Positions 52,271 to 59,350 of a stretch of 64,000 nt of DNA are shown in pieces. Made by a program: the position numbers and the translations under genes. Source of the DNA: Candidatus Solirubrobacter pratensis (lineage in GTDB: Bacteria > Actinomycetota > Thermoleophilia > Solirubrobacterales > Solirubrobacteraceae); contig NZ_AUEK01000007.1 in the NCBI RefSeq assembly GCF_000425945.1, positions 434,001 to 498,000 of the forward strand. Direction: 5' to 3'. Each line of letters begins with the position of its first letter. The first letter of the stretch is position 1. The notes under the pieces were generated by a model that saw nothing but the letters and a program-made list of their open reading frames with translations, had not been told where the DNA came from and searched no databases.

Positions 52271-53572
52271 TCAGGCGCTGCCGTTGACCGCGTAGCGGTC
52301 GAAGCGCTCCGCCACGACGGCCGGCAGCCGTGCGCTGACGCGGACGCCCTCCGGGGTGTCCTTGCGCTCCAGAGCGCCCGCGACGTCATGGAGCTCCGAC
52401 AGCGTCCCGCCTTCGGAGAACGGGACGAGCAGTTCGACGTCGCGGAGCGTGCGCTCGAACTCGGTGGCGATCCGCTCGCCGAGCTCGTCCAGCCCCTCCT
52501 GCGTGACGGCGGAGACGAGGACCGCGTCCGGGTGGCGGAAGTCGAGCTCGCGGCGGCGCTCGTCGTCGAGCAGATCCGCCTTGTTGAGCACGAGCAGCCG
52601 CGGTGAGTCGCCCGCGTCGATCTCCTCGAGCACGTCCTCGACGGCGCGCGTCATCTCGACCAGCTCCTCCTCCGGCGCGCTGGCATCGACCACGTGCAGG
52701 ACCAGGTCGGCGAGCTTGGTCTCCTCGAGCGTCGCCGCGAACGCGTCGACCAGCTGATGCGGCAGCTTGCGGATGAAGCCGACCGTGTCGGTCACCAGGT
52801 AGGCGCGGCCGTCCAGGCGCAACGTCCGCGTCGTCGGGTCGAGCGTGTGGAAGAGCCGGTCGCGGACGCCGACGTCGGACCCTGACAGCGCGTTGAGCAG
52901 CGAGGACTTGCCGGCGTTCGTGTAGCCCGCGAGCGCGATGTTCGGCAGATGGGCGCGCTCGCGCTCCTGCCGCATCACGGCGCGCGTCGAGCTCACGTGC
53001 TGGAGGCGCCGCTTGAGCGCGGAGATGCGATCGCGCGCGAGGCGGCGGTCCGTCTCGATCTGCGACTCGCCCGGGCCGCGCGTACCGATGCCGCCGCCGA
53101 GACGCTCGAGATGCGTCCACAGGCCCCGCATGCGGGCCATGTTGTACTCGAGCTGCGCCAGCTCGACCTGCAGCTTGCCCTCCGCGGTGTGGGCGTGGCC
53201 GGCGAAGATGTCGAGGATCACGGCGGTCCGATCCAGGACCGGCATCCCCAGCTGGCCTTCGAGGCTCCGCTGCTGACGCGGTGTCAGCTCATCGTCGGTG
53301 ACGACAAGGTTCGCGTCCGCCTGCTTGAGCAGCGGCACGAGCTCGTCGACCTTGCCGGGACCGAGATACGTGTTCGGATGCGGCCGCTCGCGCTTCTGCG
53401 TCATCTCGCCGACGACCGCGACACCGGCGGTCCGCAGGAGCTCCTTCAGCTCGGCGAGATCCGGCTCATCCGGCGTCACCGCGATGGTGTACGCCCGCTG
53501 CCTGGCCCGGCCGGGCTGCGGCGGTGCGGAGTAGCGGGACTGGGATGTACGGCCGTTGCGAGAGCGCTCCAA
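52271..53572 (-). CDS. hflX: HflX ribosome-associated GTPase
   Basis: This 433-residue GTPase has the HflX N-terminal domain (TQKRERPHPNTYLGPGKVDE). The coiled linker carries GGIGTRGPGESQIETDRR, and the G motifs are GYTNAGKSSLLNAL, DTVGF and NKAD. HflX splits stalled ribosomes under stress. The TTG at 53572 lies 8 nt after a TAGAAT -10 box (53581-53586). A GTG at 53611 is upstream of that box and so less likely. Confidence 0.92.
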   Translation of the reverse strand: MERSRNGRTSQSRYSAPPQPGRARQRAYTIAVTPDEPDLAELKELLRTAGVAVVGEMTQKRERPHPNTYLGPGKVDELVPLLKQADANLVVTDDELTPRQQRSLEGQLGMPVLDRTAVILDIFAGHAHTAEGKLQVELAQLEYNMARMRGLWTHLERLGGGIGTRGPGESQIETDRRLARDRISALKRRLQHVSSTRAVMRQERERAHLPNIALAGYTNAGKSSLLNALSGSDVGVRDRLFHTLDPTTRTLRLDGRAYLVTDTVGFIRKLPHQLVDAFAATLEETKLADLVLHVVDASAPEEELVEMTRAVEDVLEEIDAGDSPRLLVLNKADLLDDERRRELDFRHPDAVLVSAVTQEGLDELGERIATEFERTLRDVELLVPFSEGGTLSELHDVAGALERKDTPEGVRVSARLPAVVAERFDRYAVNGSA

Positions 53573-53653: not shown

Positions 53654-54712
53654 GTGCCGGTCAGCCCCGCCCCCAGCGACACCGACGTCGCGGCGCGCCT
53701 CGCCGGGCGCACGCTGGAGCTCGTGGACGTCGCCTCGGAGTCGCGCTCGGAGGCCCGACTTGCGGCGCACGTCGCGCGCGTGCTGCGCGACGGCGGCGCG
53801 GAGGTGACCGAGCTCGGGGACTCCTGCATCCTCGCCAGGCCGCCCGGAACGTCGCCCGGCGTCATGCTCGCCGGCCATCTCGACACCGTCCCGGCGCAGG
53901 ACAACATCCCCGGCTCGATCGACGCGGAGCGCGTGCGCGGCCTCGGGGCGAGCGACATGAAGGGCGCCCTGGCCGTGATGATCGAGCTCGTGCTGGCCGG
54001 CGCGCCGTACTCGGCGCTGTTCTTCCCACGCGAGGAGCTGCCGTCGACCGAGAGCGCGCTGGTGCCGCTGCTGCAGCGCTCGCCGGTCGAGGCGGAGCTC
54101 GTCATCGTGATGGAGCCGACCGACGGCGAGCTCCATGCGGGCTGCGTCGGCAACATCAACGCGACGTGGACGTTCCGCGGCCGCTCGGGCCACTCCGCGC
54201 GCCCGTGGGCGGCCGAGAACGCGATCACGCGGGCCGCCCTCGGCATCGCCACGCTCGCGAGCGCCCCGGTGCTCCCCGTCCAGTTCCACGGCCTCACGTT
54301 CCACGAGGTGGCGTCCGTCACCCGCATCAACGGCGGGATCGCGGCCAACGTGATCCCGGAGACCTGCACCGCCCAGGTCAACTTCCGCTACGCCCCCGGC
54401 CGCACGCCCGATGCGGCGGAGGCGCGCCTGCGCGAGCTGTGCGGCGGCCTCGGCGAGCTCGAGATCACCGGCAACGCGGCGTCCGCGCCGGTCGCGCTCG
54501 AGCACCCGCTCGCGCAGCGACTGATCGACGCCGGGGAGCTGGCCGTCGCGCCCAAGCAGGCCTGGACGCCGGTCGCCGAGTTCGCCCAGTTCGGCTATCC
54601 GGCCGTGAACTTCGGCCCCGGAGCGCCGGCGCAGGCCCATCGCCGCGACGAGTCGGTCGAGATCGCCCGGCTCCTGCACGCCCATCGGGTGCTGGAGGCG
54701 CTCGCCACGTGA
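53654..54712 (+). CDS. dapE: Succinyl-diaminopimelate desuccinylase
   Basis: This 352-residue M20-family metallohydrolase has AGHLDTVPAQDN near residue 73 (first metal His and Asp), GLGASDMKGA near 96 and PREELPSTES near 125 (catalytic Glu). The dimerisation domain contains RGRSGHSARPW. It makes LL-diaminopimelate and succinate. The next gene (overlap GTGA) supplies the aminotransferase step, which supports DapE over another M20 activity. Confidence 0.9.
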   Translation: MPVSPAPSDTDVAARLAGRTLELVDVASESRSEARLAAHVARVLRDGGAEVTELGDSCILARPPGTSPGVMLAGHLDTVPAQDNIPGSIDAERVRGLGASDMKGALAVMIELVLAGAPYSALFFPREELPSTESALVPLLQRSPVEAELVIVMEPTDGELHAGCVGNINATWTFRGRSGHSARPWAAENAITRAALGIATLASAPVLPVQFHGLTFHEVASVTRINGGIAANVIPETCTAQVNFRYAPGRTPDAAEARLRELCGGLGELEITGNAASAPVALEHPLAQRLIDAGELAVAPKQAWTPVAEFAQFGYPAVNFGPGAPAQAHRRDESVEIARLLHAHRVLEALAT

Positions 54713-55833
54713 CCGTGCGCGTCTCCCCCGTCCTCGAGGGCCTCGCGACATATCCGTTCGTGCGGCTCGAGGAGGCGCGCCGCCGTATCGCCGCCCGCGG
54801 CGTCGAGATCCTCGACTTCGGGATGGGCGAGCCGCGCGAGGAGACGCCCGCGTTCATCCGCCGGGCGCTCACGGCGGCGGTGACCCCGCTCTCCACCTAT
54901 CCCGCCGCCGTCGGGCTGCCCGAGCTGCGCGCCGCCGTCGCGGCCTGGGTCTCGACGAGGTTCGGCGCCGCGCTGGACCCCGACACCGAGGTCATCCCCA
55001 CGCTCGGGTCCAAGGAGGCGATCTACAGCCTCGCGAGCGTCCTGGAGCGCGAGTACGTCGCCGTTCCCGTGCCGTCGTATCCCGTCTATGAGCGCGGCGG
55101 CCTGTTCGCCGGCAAGAAGATCATCGAGCTGCCGCTGACCGAGTCCAACGGCTGGCTGCCCGATCTCACGGGCGTCGATTGGGACCGCGTCGCGCTGCTC
55201 TGGCTCAATTACCCCAACAACCCGACCGGCGCGACCGCGCCGCTCGAGTTCTACGAGGCCGCGGCCGAGCTGGCTCGCCACCACGGGTTCGTGCTCGCCT
55301 CCGACGAGGCCTACTCGGAGATCTACTTCGGCGCGCCCCCGCAGTCCGCGCTCCAGCTCGCCGACCGCACGAACGTGCTCGCCTTCAACACGCTCTCCAA
55401 GCGCTCGTCCATGCCGGGCTACCGCTCCGGCTTCGTCGCCGGCGACCCGCAGCTGATCGCCGCGCTCAAGCGCTTCCGGCCGAACGTCGGGGTCGCGCCG
55501 CAGGAGTTCATCCAGCGCGCCGCCGTCGCGGCCTGGAGCGACGAGCGCCACGTGGACGACGTGCGCGAGCGCTACCGCGCCAAGCGCGAGCTGCTGCTCG
55601 AGGCCCTGCCGCTGCGCAACGCCGGCGGCGACGCGTCGTTCTTCCTCTGGCTCGAAGGCGACGACGAGCTGGCGGCGCGCTGGCTCGAGCAGGGCGTCGT
55701 CGTCGCGCCCGGCTCGTTCTTCGGCGCCCCGGGCTACGTCAGGCTCGCGCTCGTACCGACGCTCGAGAGCTGCGCCAAGGCGGCGTCACTCATTGGCGTG
55801 CAGGGCGGCGTTCAGGCCGGCCCAGCTGCCTGA
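54709..55833 (+). CDS. dapC: N-succinyldiaminopimelate aminotransferase DapC
   Basis: This 374-residue fold-type I aminotransferase has [11 protein letters not shown] near residue 42, the asparagine in [11 protein letters not shown] near 168, SDEAYSE near 200 and the PLP lysine in [17 protein letters not shown] near 230. Coupling to dapE and its closeness to dapD/dapF identify the DAP pathway step. Its last 48 bases are also coding for the end of dapD on the other strand. Confidence 0.9.
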
Positions 55834-56715
55834 GCGCGGCAGCGCCTCGACCGCCCCGGTGCGCGAGTTGCGCCGGAACAGGAGCCCGTTCGCGCCGCTC
55901 AGCGCGCGCGCCTTGACGACCTCGCCGTCGGGCAGCGTGACGAGCGTGCCGGCCGTGACGTAGAGCCCCGCCTCGACCGTGCAGTCGTCCCCGAGCGAGA
56001 TCCCGATGCCGGCGTTGGCGCCGAGCAGGCAGCGCTCGCCGATCGAGATCACCTCGGTGCCGCCGCCCGAGAGCGTGCCCATGATGCTCGCGCCGCCGCC
56101 GACGTCCGAGCCGTCGCCGACGACGACCCCCGCGCTGATCCGCCCCTCGATCATCGAGTGCCCGAGCGTGCCGGCGTTGTAGTTCACGAAGCCCTCGTGC
56201 ATCACCGTCGTGCCCTCGGCGAGGTACGCCCCGAGCCGTACCCGGTCGCCGTCGGCGACGCGCACGCCGGAGGGCGCGACGTAGTCCGTCATGCGCGGGA
56301 ACTTGTCCAGCGAGTGGACCTCCAGGTGGAGGTTCTCCGTGCGGAACGCGAGTTGGACGGCGGGGATGCTCGCGGGATCGACCGGGCCGTAGTTCGTCCA
56401 GGCGACGTTCGGCAGCACGGCGAAGATGCCCTCCATGTTGACTTCGCGCGGCTTGACGAGCCGGTGGCTGAGCAGGTGCAGGCGCAGGTAGGCGTCCGCG
56501 GTGTCGGCGGGCGGCTGGGAGAGATCGGCGATCACGGTCAACAGCGACGCCTGACGGACCCCGCGGCGCGGGTCCTCGAACTCCGGCGGGACGGCATTGG
56601 GCGCGGCGGCGCCCGGATCGCCCAGCCGCGGCTGGAAATAGAAGACCTCGAGCACGCGGTCGCCCGACAGCGTGGCCAGCCCGGCGCCCCACGCGCCGCC
56701 CTCGATGAAGCTCAT
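55786..56715 (-). CDS. dapD: Tetrahydrodipicolinate N-succinyltransferase DapD
   Basis: This 309-residue protein has the left-handed beta-helix of DapD in its C-terminal half, with repeats such as [38 protein letters not shown] and [16 protein letters not shown]. The long N-terminal domain is of the actinobacterial type. It succinylates tetrahydrodipicolinate. ATG overlaps the upstream SDR stop (ATGA). Confidence 0.92.
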
Positions 56716-57566
56716 CCTTTGAACGCCTCCACGTGATCCTTCGCGAACGTGTCCAGGTCGCGCGGCGGCCGGCCGAGCGCGTCCTGCACCCCGGAGGTGA
56801 CCATCGTCGCGCCGCCGGCGGCATAGACCTCGAACAGCTCGCACAGGCCCTCCGCGTTCCAGGGTGGCACGCCGGCGCGGACCAGCTCGCGCTTGACGGC
56901 CTCGACCGGCACTTCTGCGACCTCGACCTCGCGCCCCGCGGCCGCGAACAGCCGTTTCGCCTGATCGCGGTAGGAGATCGCCTCCGGTCCGGACAGGCCG
57001 TACGCCTTGCCCTGGTGACCCTCGTCGGTGAGCGCGAGCGCCGCGACCTCCGCGACGTCGCGCGCGTCGACGATGCTGAACGCCGCGTCGGGGACCGGCG
57101 TGTAGAACGTCCCGTCCTGGACTCGCTCGCCCCACCCGAGCGTGTTCTGCATGAATCCGGCCGCGCGCAGCAGCGTCCACGCCATGCCGGACTCCTTCAG
57201 CGCGCGCTCGACCTTGCCGTGCGAGCGCGCGAAGCGGCCGGGCGCCTCCTCGGACGCGCCGATCACCGACAGCTTGACGATGTGCTTGACGCCCGCCGTC
57301 CTGGCGGTCTCCAGGAACGCCTGCTCGAGCTCGGACTGCATCGGGCTGGCGGGCGCCACCAGGTATGCGCGCTCGACGCCCTCCAGCGCGGGCCCGAGCG
57401 TGCGCGGGTCGCCCAGATCGCCGGTCACCGGGGTGAAGCCGAGGTCGCGCAGGTGATGGGCCTTGGTCTCGTCGCGCACCAGCGCGCGGGCCTCCGCGCC
57501 GCGGGCCTTGAGTGCGCGCAGGACCTCCATCCCGGTCGTGCCCGTCGCTCCGGTCACCAGCAGCAT
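56712..57566 (-). CDS. NmrA-like atypical short-chain dehydrogenase
   Basis: This 284-residue Rossmann protein has the N-terminal [19 protein letters not shown], then ALVRDETKA and PVTGDLGD near residue 47, typical of NmrA/azoreductase-like NAD(P) proteins. The usual YxxxK pair is not clear. It lies between dapF (adjacent with no gap) and dapD (4-base overlap). A role linked to diaminopimelate is possible but unproven. Confidence 0.83.
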
Positions 57567-58400
57567 TCAGACGCCTCCGTATTCGTTCAGCTCGCTCACC
57601 AGCTCCTCGCTCAGCTCTCCGCGGTAGATCGGCACGGCCCAGCCGGTGAGATCCACGTGCAGGGATTCGTCGACCTCGACCTCCAGCTCGCCGCCGTCGA
57701 GCTTGACCGTGACCGGCGAGTCCCCGCCGCGCACGACGTGGGCGACGGCCGCGCCCGAGGCTCCCGTACCCGACGAGAGCGTCTCGCCCACGCCGCGCTC
57801 GAAGATGCGGGCGCGGATCGTGCGGGCGTCGAGCTCCGTCCAGAAGCTCACGTTCGTGCGGTTGGGGAAGATCGGCGCGCTCTCGATCTGGGGGGCGATC
57901 GCGGGCAGGTCGAGCGTCTCGAGCAGCTCGAGGTCGTCGATCCGGATCGAGCACTGCGGGTTGCCGATCGCGACGTGCTGGAAGCGCCAGGGACCGATCT
58001 CGCCCCTGCCGTCCGGCGGTCCGCCCGGGAAGTGCTCGCTCTGAAGCAGGGCGCGGCCCATGTCGACGCGGCAGGTGGTCGGACCCGTGATCGTCGGCCG
58101 GATCTCGCCCGCCAGCGTCTGGATGCTGAACGTGTCGCTGTCCGTCCAGCCCGCGCGGCGGAGGTACAGGATCGCCTCGCGGGCGCCGTTGCCCGACAGC
58201 TCCGCCTCGGAGCCGTCGGGGTTGAAGATCCGCAGCCGCGCGACGTACCCGGGCTCGTCGGGCGGGGCGAGCAGGAGCACGCCGTCGCCGCCGGGGCCGA
58301 AGTGCGGGTCGCACAGGCGGCGGACCTGGTTCGGGGTCAGCTCGGACCCCTCGAAGATGAGGTAGTCGTTGCCGAGGGCCTGCCATTTCTCGAAGCGCAC
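57567..58400 (-). CDS. dapF: Diaminopimelate epimerase homologue with both catalytic Cys replaced by Ser
   Basis: This 277-residue protein has the full DapF fold signature: [58 protein letters not shown] and [14 protein letters not shown]. The two catalytic cysteines expected before GNG and GTG are Ser69 and Ser210 (both TCG codons; 58194-58196 and 57771-57773). Substrate-binding motifs are kept. Cys-to-Ser changes greatly impair or abolish epimerase activity in studied enzymes, so this protein is either an altered epimerase or does something else. It follows miaA by 5 bases. Confidence 0.9.
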
Positions 58401-58405
58401 GAGGG

Positions 58406-59290
58406 TCAGATCATGCCGTGGATGTCGGCTGCGACGTCCTCAGGCGTGCGTCCGGTGGTGTCGATCAGGTGCGCGCCGGGCAGCTTGCGCAGCCATGTGA
58501 GCTGGCGCTTGGCGTAGCGGCGGGTGCGCGTGCGCATGGCCTGCACGTCGCCGTGCAGGATCTCCTCGAAGCCGAGCGCGGCGCGTGCGGTCCGGGAGGC
58601 TCCGCGTGCCGCGGCCTGCTCTGCCTCGCGCTGTGCTCCGGCCTCGAGCATCGCGTCGATGCGGCGCTCGATCCGCTCATAGAGGGCGTCACGGTCCATC
58701 ACGAGCGCGGCGAGCAGGGTCGGGTGACGGGTGTCGCTCGTCCACAGCTGCGAGGGGTCGCCGGGGGCGGGCGGGGGCGCATGGCCGGCGTCCTGGAGCT
58801 CGAGCGCGCGGAGGATGCGCTGGGTATCGGTCGGTGCGATGCCGGTGCCCGAGGGAAGCCGGGCGTGGAGCGCCGCCAGGCCGTGGCGCTCGAGCTCGCG
58901 CTGCCAGTGGCTGCGGATCTCCGGGTCGACGGGCGGGCGGAGGTCCAGCTCGGCGAGCGCGGCGCGCAGGTAGAGGCCGGTGCCGCCGACGACGATCGGG
59001 CGGCGGCCCTGCTCGATCAGGGCGTCGATCTCGCTGTGCGCGAGGGTGGCGTAGGCGCCGGCCGAGGACGTCTCGGTGACGGGCAGGAAGCCGATCAGGC
59101 GGTGTTCGAGGCGGGTCTGCTCCTCGGCGGTCGCTGCGCCGCTGAGGATCTCGAGGCCCCGGTAGACCTGGATCGCGTCGGCCGAGACCGCCACGGGGTC
59201 CTCGCCGCGTGCGCGCAGGCGCTCGGCGAGCGCGATCGCGACCGCCGTCTTGCCGATGCCGGTCGGCCCGAACACTGCGATGACGCGCAC
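58406..59290 (-). CDS. miaA: tRNA dimethylallyltransferase MiaA
   Basis: This 294-residue enzyme prenylates A37 of tRNAs reading UNN codons. It has the P-loop [11 protein letters not shown] near residue 7, [13 protein letters not shown] near 36, [10 protein letters not shown] near 94 and [12 protein letters not shown] near 262. GTG at 59290 starts just before the P-loop, as in relatives. It heads a miaA-dapF-SDR-dapD operon. Confidence 0.93.
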
Positions 59291-59350
59291 GCGGCCAGTA
59301 TCGCGGGGTGGGCGGGCCTGTCCGCCACCGCCCCGCCTCACGGCGCGTTC

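Follow-up and report, generated by a model that had tools for sequence, protein, structure and literature searches.

Can an enzyme whose chemistry is attributed to two cysteines go on working when both have become serine? This question is raised by a dapF gene in a 64,000-nucleotide stretch of the Candidatus Solirubrobacter pratensis contig NZ_AUEK01000007.1 (positions 434,001 to 498,000), the whole of which is referred to here as the window. By its sequence, fold, binding residues and context, the encoded protein is an orthologue of DapF, the diaminopimelate (DAP) epimerase, and it lacks the pair of cysteines by which that enzyme is defined. Consequently, we class it as a new variant class of DapF, not as a standard DapF. 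Either serine performs a role for which sulphur was believed necessary, or the carriers of such proteins make meso-DAP in a way that has not been described. Our analysis favours the former, and we infer that the window protein is probably the working, thiol-free DAP epimerase of its organism, with a Ser/Ser acid-base pair. The gene and the three codons at issue are as follows, with residues numbered from the GTG start codon as residue 1 and sites mapped through a residue-by-residue alignment with the Haemophilus influenzae DapF structures:

57567..58400, minus strand: dapF of the Ser/Ser type, 277 amino acids, GTG start (from the translation, TIGR00652, two PF01678 matches and the AlphaFold model)
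58194..58196, minus strand: codon TCG of Ser69, aligned to H. influenzae Cys73, directly before helix 70-82
57954..57956, minus strand: codon CAG of Gln149, aligned to H. influenzae His159
57771..57773, minus strand: codon TCG of Ser210, aligned to H. influenzae Cys217, directly before helix 211-223

The gene runs from the GTG at position 58400 to a stop codon at 57569-57567. Its product scores 180.2 bits against the NCBIfam equivalog model for DapF, TIGR00652 (cut-off 114.65), and matches the Pfam family PF01678 (DAP_epimerase) twice along its length. Thus, a curated annotation model accepts the protein as DapF without flagging the absent cysteines. The model for the bifunctional DapF/glutamate racemase, NF038284, yielded 46.1 bits against a cut-off of 350, and no proline racemase superfamily was among the Pfam and NCBIfam matches, although the general fold is shared with that superfamily at lower Z. 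The AlphaFold model of the protein (predicted local distance difference test score 96.7, predicted template modelling score 0.92) superposed on DapF structures, including those of the C73S and C217S mutants, with Z of 32-35 over 251-266 aligned residues.

The catalytic thiolate/thiol pair Cys73/Cys217, the former recorded in the PROSITE signature as the C before GNG, is replaced by serine at both places, Ser69 preceding GNG and Ser210 preceding GTG. The original prediction, made from the sequence alone, had described this double replacement and its TCG codons, and the alignment and codon reading bore out every detail. In the model, both serines sit immediately N-terminal to helices (70-82 and 211-223), and catalytic residues are known to stand directly before helices in the DapF fold (PMC11602996).

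The remainder of the pocket is that of a DAP-binding protein. Eight residues of Corynebacterium glutamicum DapF, N15, N74, N85, N159, N194, E212, R213 and T223, have been shown to yield inactive enzymes when mutated to alanine (PMC5296763), and all eight have counterparts in the window protein (N11, N60, N71, N147, N183, E201, R202 and T212), in agreement with the earlier statement that the substrate-binding motifs are kept. Among Ser/Ser forms, the N, E and R binding residues are conserved at about 100%, and position 212 is T or S. One active-site change had not been listed in the original prediction, namely that H. influenzae His159 corresponds to Gln149; this residue is Gln in 70/70 sequences of the order to which the window belongs, His in 90% of the other Ser/Ser forms and His in 100% of the Cys/Cys forms. 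A comparison of all alignment columns revealed that sites 69 and 210 are the sole polar or ionisable change common to both Ser/Ser groups relative to the Cys/Cys forms. No relocated cysteine and no gained base (His, Asp, Glu, Lys or Tyr) common to the Ser/Ser groups was found in the alignment that could stand in for the missing pair; Cys30 occurs in Cys/Cys forms too, and Cys110 and Cys150 are not general. Met is lost at positions 56, 68 and 197 in the Ser/Ser groups, a difference that is probably phylogenetic, since the Cys/Cys structures from H. influenzae and Acinetobacter also lack these Met residues.

Within the order, judged from its named members to be Solirubrobacterales, a close DapF was found in 110 of 111 genomes, and Ser occupies both sites in all 70 sequences examined (49/49 in a first set, to which named genomes were then added). 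Carriers include Patulibacter americanus DSM 16676, Conexibacter sp. and many Solirubrobacterales. Six clean dapF pairs gave ratios of nonsynonymous to synonymous substitution (dN/dS) of 0.14-0.41, a seventh pair (0.77) having been set aside because a long flanking frame was included; purifying selection thus acts on these genes. The uniformity of the order together with dN/dS values below 1 rules out a sequencing error or a pseudogene, and the earlier argument that a paired change is not a base-call error is upheld by the aligned relatives. Across the wider set, the serine codons are a mixture of TCN and AGY.

The class Thermoleophilia as a whole is mixed, containing Cys/Cys, Ser/Cys and Ser/Ser families (the residue at the Cys73 position being given first). 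Two further family groups are Ser/Ser as well, namely f11 and f7, the latter having a motif like that of Gaiella-like records; f9 holds Cys/Cys and Ser/Cys forms together, and f5, f6, f8, f10 and f12 were Cys/Cys among the sequences inspected. The DAP_epimerase family was not matched in five genomes of the class that are at least 93% complete (G016, G028, G064, G092 (f8) and G089 (f5)). Separately, one genome of the order contains a second, very divergent gene of the DapF fold with Cys at both sites (L082, at G307:C165); at 33% identity, it is possibly another amino acid racemase.

The original prediction had treated the replacement as a peculiarity of one lineage. In fact, the class itself is mixed, and Ser/Ser DapF sequences are distributed over about ten phyla, as judged from the sequences retrieved. 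Scanning the GTDB genome collection for a DNA pattern encoding ERG[VA]GETx[SA]-Ser-G yielded at least 118 loci. Among the 118 matches listed, all are DapF, with 102 Ser/Ser, 9 Cys/Ser and the remainder incomplete before site 1. They come from Acidobacteriota, Aminicenantes, Nitrospirota, Chloroflexota, Gemmatimonadota and Myxococcota, and furthermore from Latescibacterota, Zixiibacteriota, Eiseniibacteriota and one record labelled Bacillota. When 149 sampled Acidobacteriota genomes were searched with a Ser-or-Cys pattern that misses many, 32 of the 35 matching genomes had Ser at site 2. Because the sampling is pattern-based, these counts are not prevalences. Forms with a single serine also occur: Ser/Cys in several other Actinomycetota families (part of L229-L245, and L007, L009, L021, L023 and L030), and Cys/Ser in Rubrobacter, Nitriliruptorales and Acidimicrobiia records, the Cys/Ser loci being L104, L133, L139, L141, L145, L160, L165, L196 and L218. 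Parsimony on a 100-sequence tree called for seven or more state changes (3 at site 1, 5 at site 2), and the Ser/Ser forms fall in three separated places on this tree. A single Ser/Ser clade was not rejected by the approximately unbiased test (p 0.14); independent origins are therefore possible, not proven, and horizontal transfer is a possible alternative to repeated origin.

Whether a carrier has another source of meso-DAP was addressed by following two checks that the original prediction had proposed, namely a search for a second dapF and one for ddh. No second canonical DapF is present in the own genome, and the Ser-type enzyme is the only clear DapF in 40 of the 43 genomes searched, including eight single-contig ones. 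The remaining three comprise two Nitrospirota genomes with an extra Cys/Cys copy (G351 and G362, in which the Cys/Cys copies L221 and L222 accompany the Ser/Ser genes L120 and L146 and allow a natural comparison of the two forms) and one with a weak fragment match. The meso-DAP dehydrogenase Ddh (TIGR01921) was above its cut-off in none of 38 genomes, while the controls matched. The Asp/Glu racemase family PF01177, which includes MurI (glutamate racemase, a source of D-glutamate), was unmatched in the own genome (G000) and in G081, G103 and G007, all near-complete or single-contig, and its members are patchy across the genomes searched.

LysA, which acts on the D-centre of meso-DAP, exceeds its cut-off in each of the 19 Thermoleophilia-type genomes tested, the own genome among them (in one of the 19 in two pieces), and in 31/38 overall. 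The own genome (L266) and its relatives also encode a MurE with the DNPR motif, the mark of the meso-DAP-adding enzyme. Consistently, the cell wall of Conexibacter has meso-DAP, which is stated for the whole order (PMC3035278), and that of Solirubrobacter contains it as well (PMC10722151). In a Dehalococcoidia genome encoding LysA and a Ser/Ser DapF adjoining DapL, MurE was not found, an absence that is weak since the genome is a metagenome bin; lysine is the evident use of DapF there.

Taken together, the lack of a second dapF in 40/43 genomes and of Ddh over its cut-off in 38, along with LysA, the DNPR motif of MurE and the meso-DAP wall, favours a Ser/Ser epimerase, the first of four options originally offered (the others being another route to meso-DAP, an LL-DAP wall and a repurposed DapF). 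The observations on which this reading stands are the positions of the serines before helices, the kept binding residues, purifying selection, the single copy, the pathway context and the recurrence in many phyla. In such an enzyme, the hydroxyls of Ser69 and Ser210 would form the acid-base pair, and they might be activated by the helix dipoles, by the conserved Asn71 and Glu201 and, where present, by His149, with desolvation on domain closure as a possible further activation. Cys/Cys DapF has a disulphide switch (PMC5296763), and the Ser/Ser form could benefit by escaping the inactivation that disulphide formation is known to cause in that enzyme.

Several points weigh against a Ser/Ser epimerase. 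To our knowledge, no natural one is known, and literature searches, whose coverage leaves out most subscription journals, returned no report of a natural Ser/Ser DapF. The order of the window has also lost His159, and two Nitrospirota genomes retain a Cys/Cys copy in addition to their Ser/Ser DapF. Cys-to-Ser PddB has less than 0.1% activity, and the same is said of Mycobacterium tuberculosis DapF (PMC8225329); the turnover of HisR is strongly reduced by the same replacement (PMC11602996), and Ser has been described as having a higher pKa and being harder to desolvate than Cys (PMC8142540). Moreover, some members of the proline racemase superfamily in which Cys is replaced show no racemase activity or act as dehydratases (PMC1964878, PMC4113996, PMC8142540).

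Other explanations have been considered. The chief rival is that meso-DAP is made by an epimerase not homologous to DapF that has escaped recognition, or by a dehydrogenase outside the known Ddh family, and that the Ser/Ser DapF only binds DAP, for instance as a regulator or partner. The near inactivity of Cys-to-Ser mutants of relatives and the additional replacement of His159 in the order would fit such a role, for which the partnership of Escherichia coli DapF with RppH (PDB 6d13, 6vck) offers an example. Nevertheless, we regard this as unlikely, as one such enzyme would be required in many phyla, the pocket residues besides the pair are near 100% conserved with the pair itself always Ser within the order, and the two families searched as candidates gave either no match over the cut-off (Ddh, 38 genomes) or a patchy distribution without a match in the own genome (Asp/Glu racemases). 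Less likely still is a poor DAP epimerase, in which the serines sustain only slow residual catalysis, enough for oligotrophs that grow slowly and keep their enzyme levels high, and in which the replacement has been tolerated without being adaptive. Residual activities below 0.1% are reported for Cys-to-Ser enzymes, the records of many carriers point to soil and groundwater as their origin, and intermediate Ser/Cys and Cys/Ser forms occur; however, Ser has been strictly fixed over a large divergence, and none of the 70 sequences of the order shows a reversion, a pattern that resembles selection for Ser.

It appears improbable that the protein catalyses a different reaction with a DAP-like compound or some other amino acid as substrate, namely an elimination or the racemisation of an amino acid other than DAP. 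Replacement of Cys did give rise to dehydratases in the proline racemase superfamily, and an O-ureidoserine racemase ties with DapF by fold (Z 35.8 versus 35.0), but the DAP-binding residues are retained, lysine/DAP or wall genes are the neighbours in unrelated phyla, and the gene is single-copy where LysA and MurE require meso-DAP. Finally, a wall built with LL-DAP, in a lineage without need for DapF, would explain the loss of catalytic residues without replacement; given the meso-DAP reported for the order, the presence of LysA and the meso-DAP-type DNPR of MurE, this option is already largely refuted for the order and has very little probability left.

Comparison with known systems delimits what is new. 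The Cys/Cys DapF enzymes of H. influenzae (1gqz), C. glutamicum (5m47) and Anabaena (9mro) have their fold, substrate-binding residues, context and pathway position in common with the window DapF, which differs in that both cysteines are Ser and, as in its order, His159 is Gln and the Glu of RTNVE is Ser. The H. influenzae variants C73S (2q9h) and C217S (2q9j) have Cys exchanged for Ser at these very positions of the same fold, but they are laboratory single mutants of a Cys enzyme, whereas the pair in the window is natural, fixed and the only form in its genome. A precedent from nature, in which Ser occupies one of the two catalytic positions in this fold, is the Ser/Cys 4-hydroxyproline 2-epimerase of the proline racemase superfamily (PMC4113996), which has a single Ser, another substrate and another family, its relatives showing about 15% identity by structural alignment. 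Similarly, the cofactor-independent Asp/Glu racemase EcL-DER has a hydroxyl residue in place of one catalytic Cys (Thr/Cys; PMC8142540), although it belongs to another family, is nearly irreversible and still has Cys at the second site. The O-ureidoserine racemase (7vdy), tied by fold with Z 35.8, has another substrate and pathway, while the window gene has DAP genes as neighbours.

DapF is the textbook case of thiol-based, cofactor-free epimerisation as well as an antibacterial target, and reviews explain the chemical preference for Cys over Ser. If the Ser/Ser enzymes work, the chemical requirement as now accepted is not the whole story, and nature supplies a series of Cys/Cys, Ser/Cys, Cys/Ser and Ser/Ser forms from which to learn how; otherwise, meso-DAP is made by an undiscovered enzyme in abundant soil and nitrifying bacteria. 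We tentatively propose, as something short of probable, that thiol-free DAP epimerases form a large class in nature, in which Ser/Ser would move a proton of pKa about 29 at physiologically useful speed, free of cofactor and metal and of oxidative inactivation, and of which the Ser/Cys and Cys/Ser forms would be living intermediates. Inhibitors directed at thiols, aziridino-DAP among them, would presumably be ineffective against Ser/Ser enzymes.

The genes around dapF in the window are the following:

52271..53473, minus strand: hflX GTPase, start approximate (TIGR03156, 435.8 bits)
53654..54712, plus strand: dapE, succinyl-DAP desuccinylase, which makes LL-DAP (TIGR01900, 326.5 bits, cut-off 304.2)
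54709..55833, plus strand: dapC-like aminotransferase (best match TIGR03537, succinyl-DAP transaminase, 357.7 bits, under the cut-off of 453.6)
55786..56715, minus strand: dapD, tetrahydrodipicolinate N-succinyltransferase (TIGR03535, 459.3 bits, cut-off 441.5)
56712..57566, minus strand: NmrA-like NAD(P)-binding protein, between dapD and dapF (PF05368 and PF13460 over their cut-offs)
58406..59341, minus strand: miaA, the upstream neighbour of dapF (TIGR00174, 159.8 bits)

As expected of a DapF gene, the window gene has no second copy, is accompanied by genes of its pathway and belongs to an organism in need of meso-DAP. In Chloroflexota, Ser/Ser dapF adjoins the gene for DapL (LL-DAP aminotransferase), with miaA or hflX close by; miaA adjoins it at locus L135, as in the window, and hflX is the other conserved neighbour. 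An Acidobacteriaceae record has Ser/Ser dapF near genes for an LD-carboxypeptidase and the meso-DAP tripeptide ligase Mpl, and Ddl or PBP4 genes adjoin it in other records. Some Ser/Ser dapF records have unrelated neighbours (HtrA, HisF, TolQ-like).
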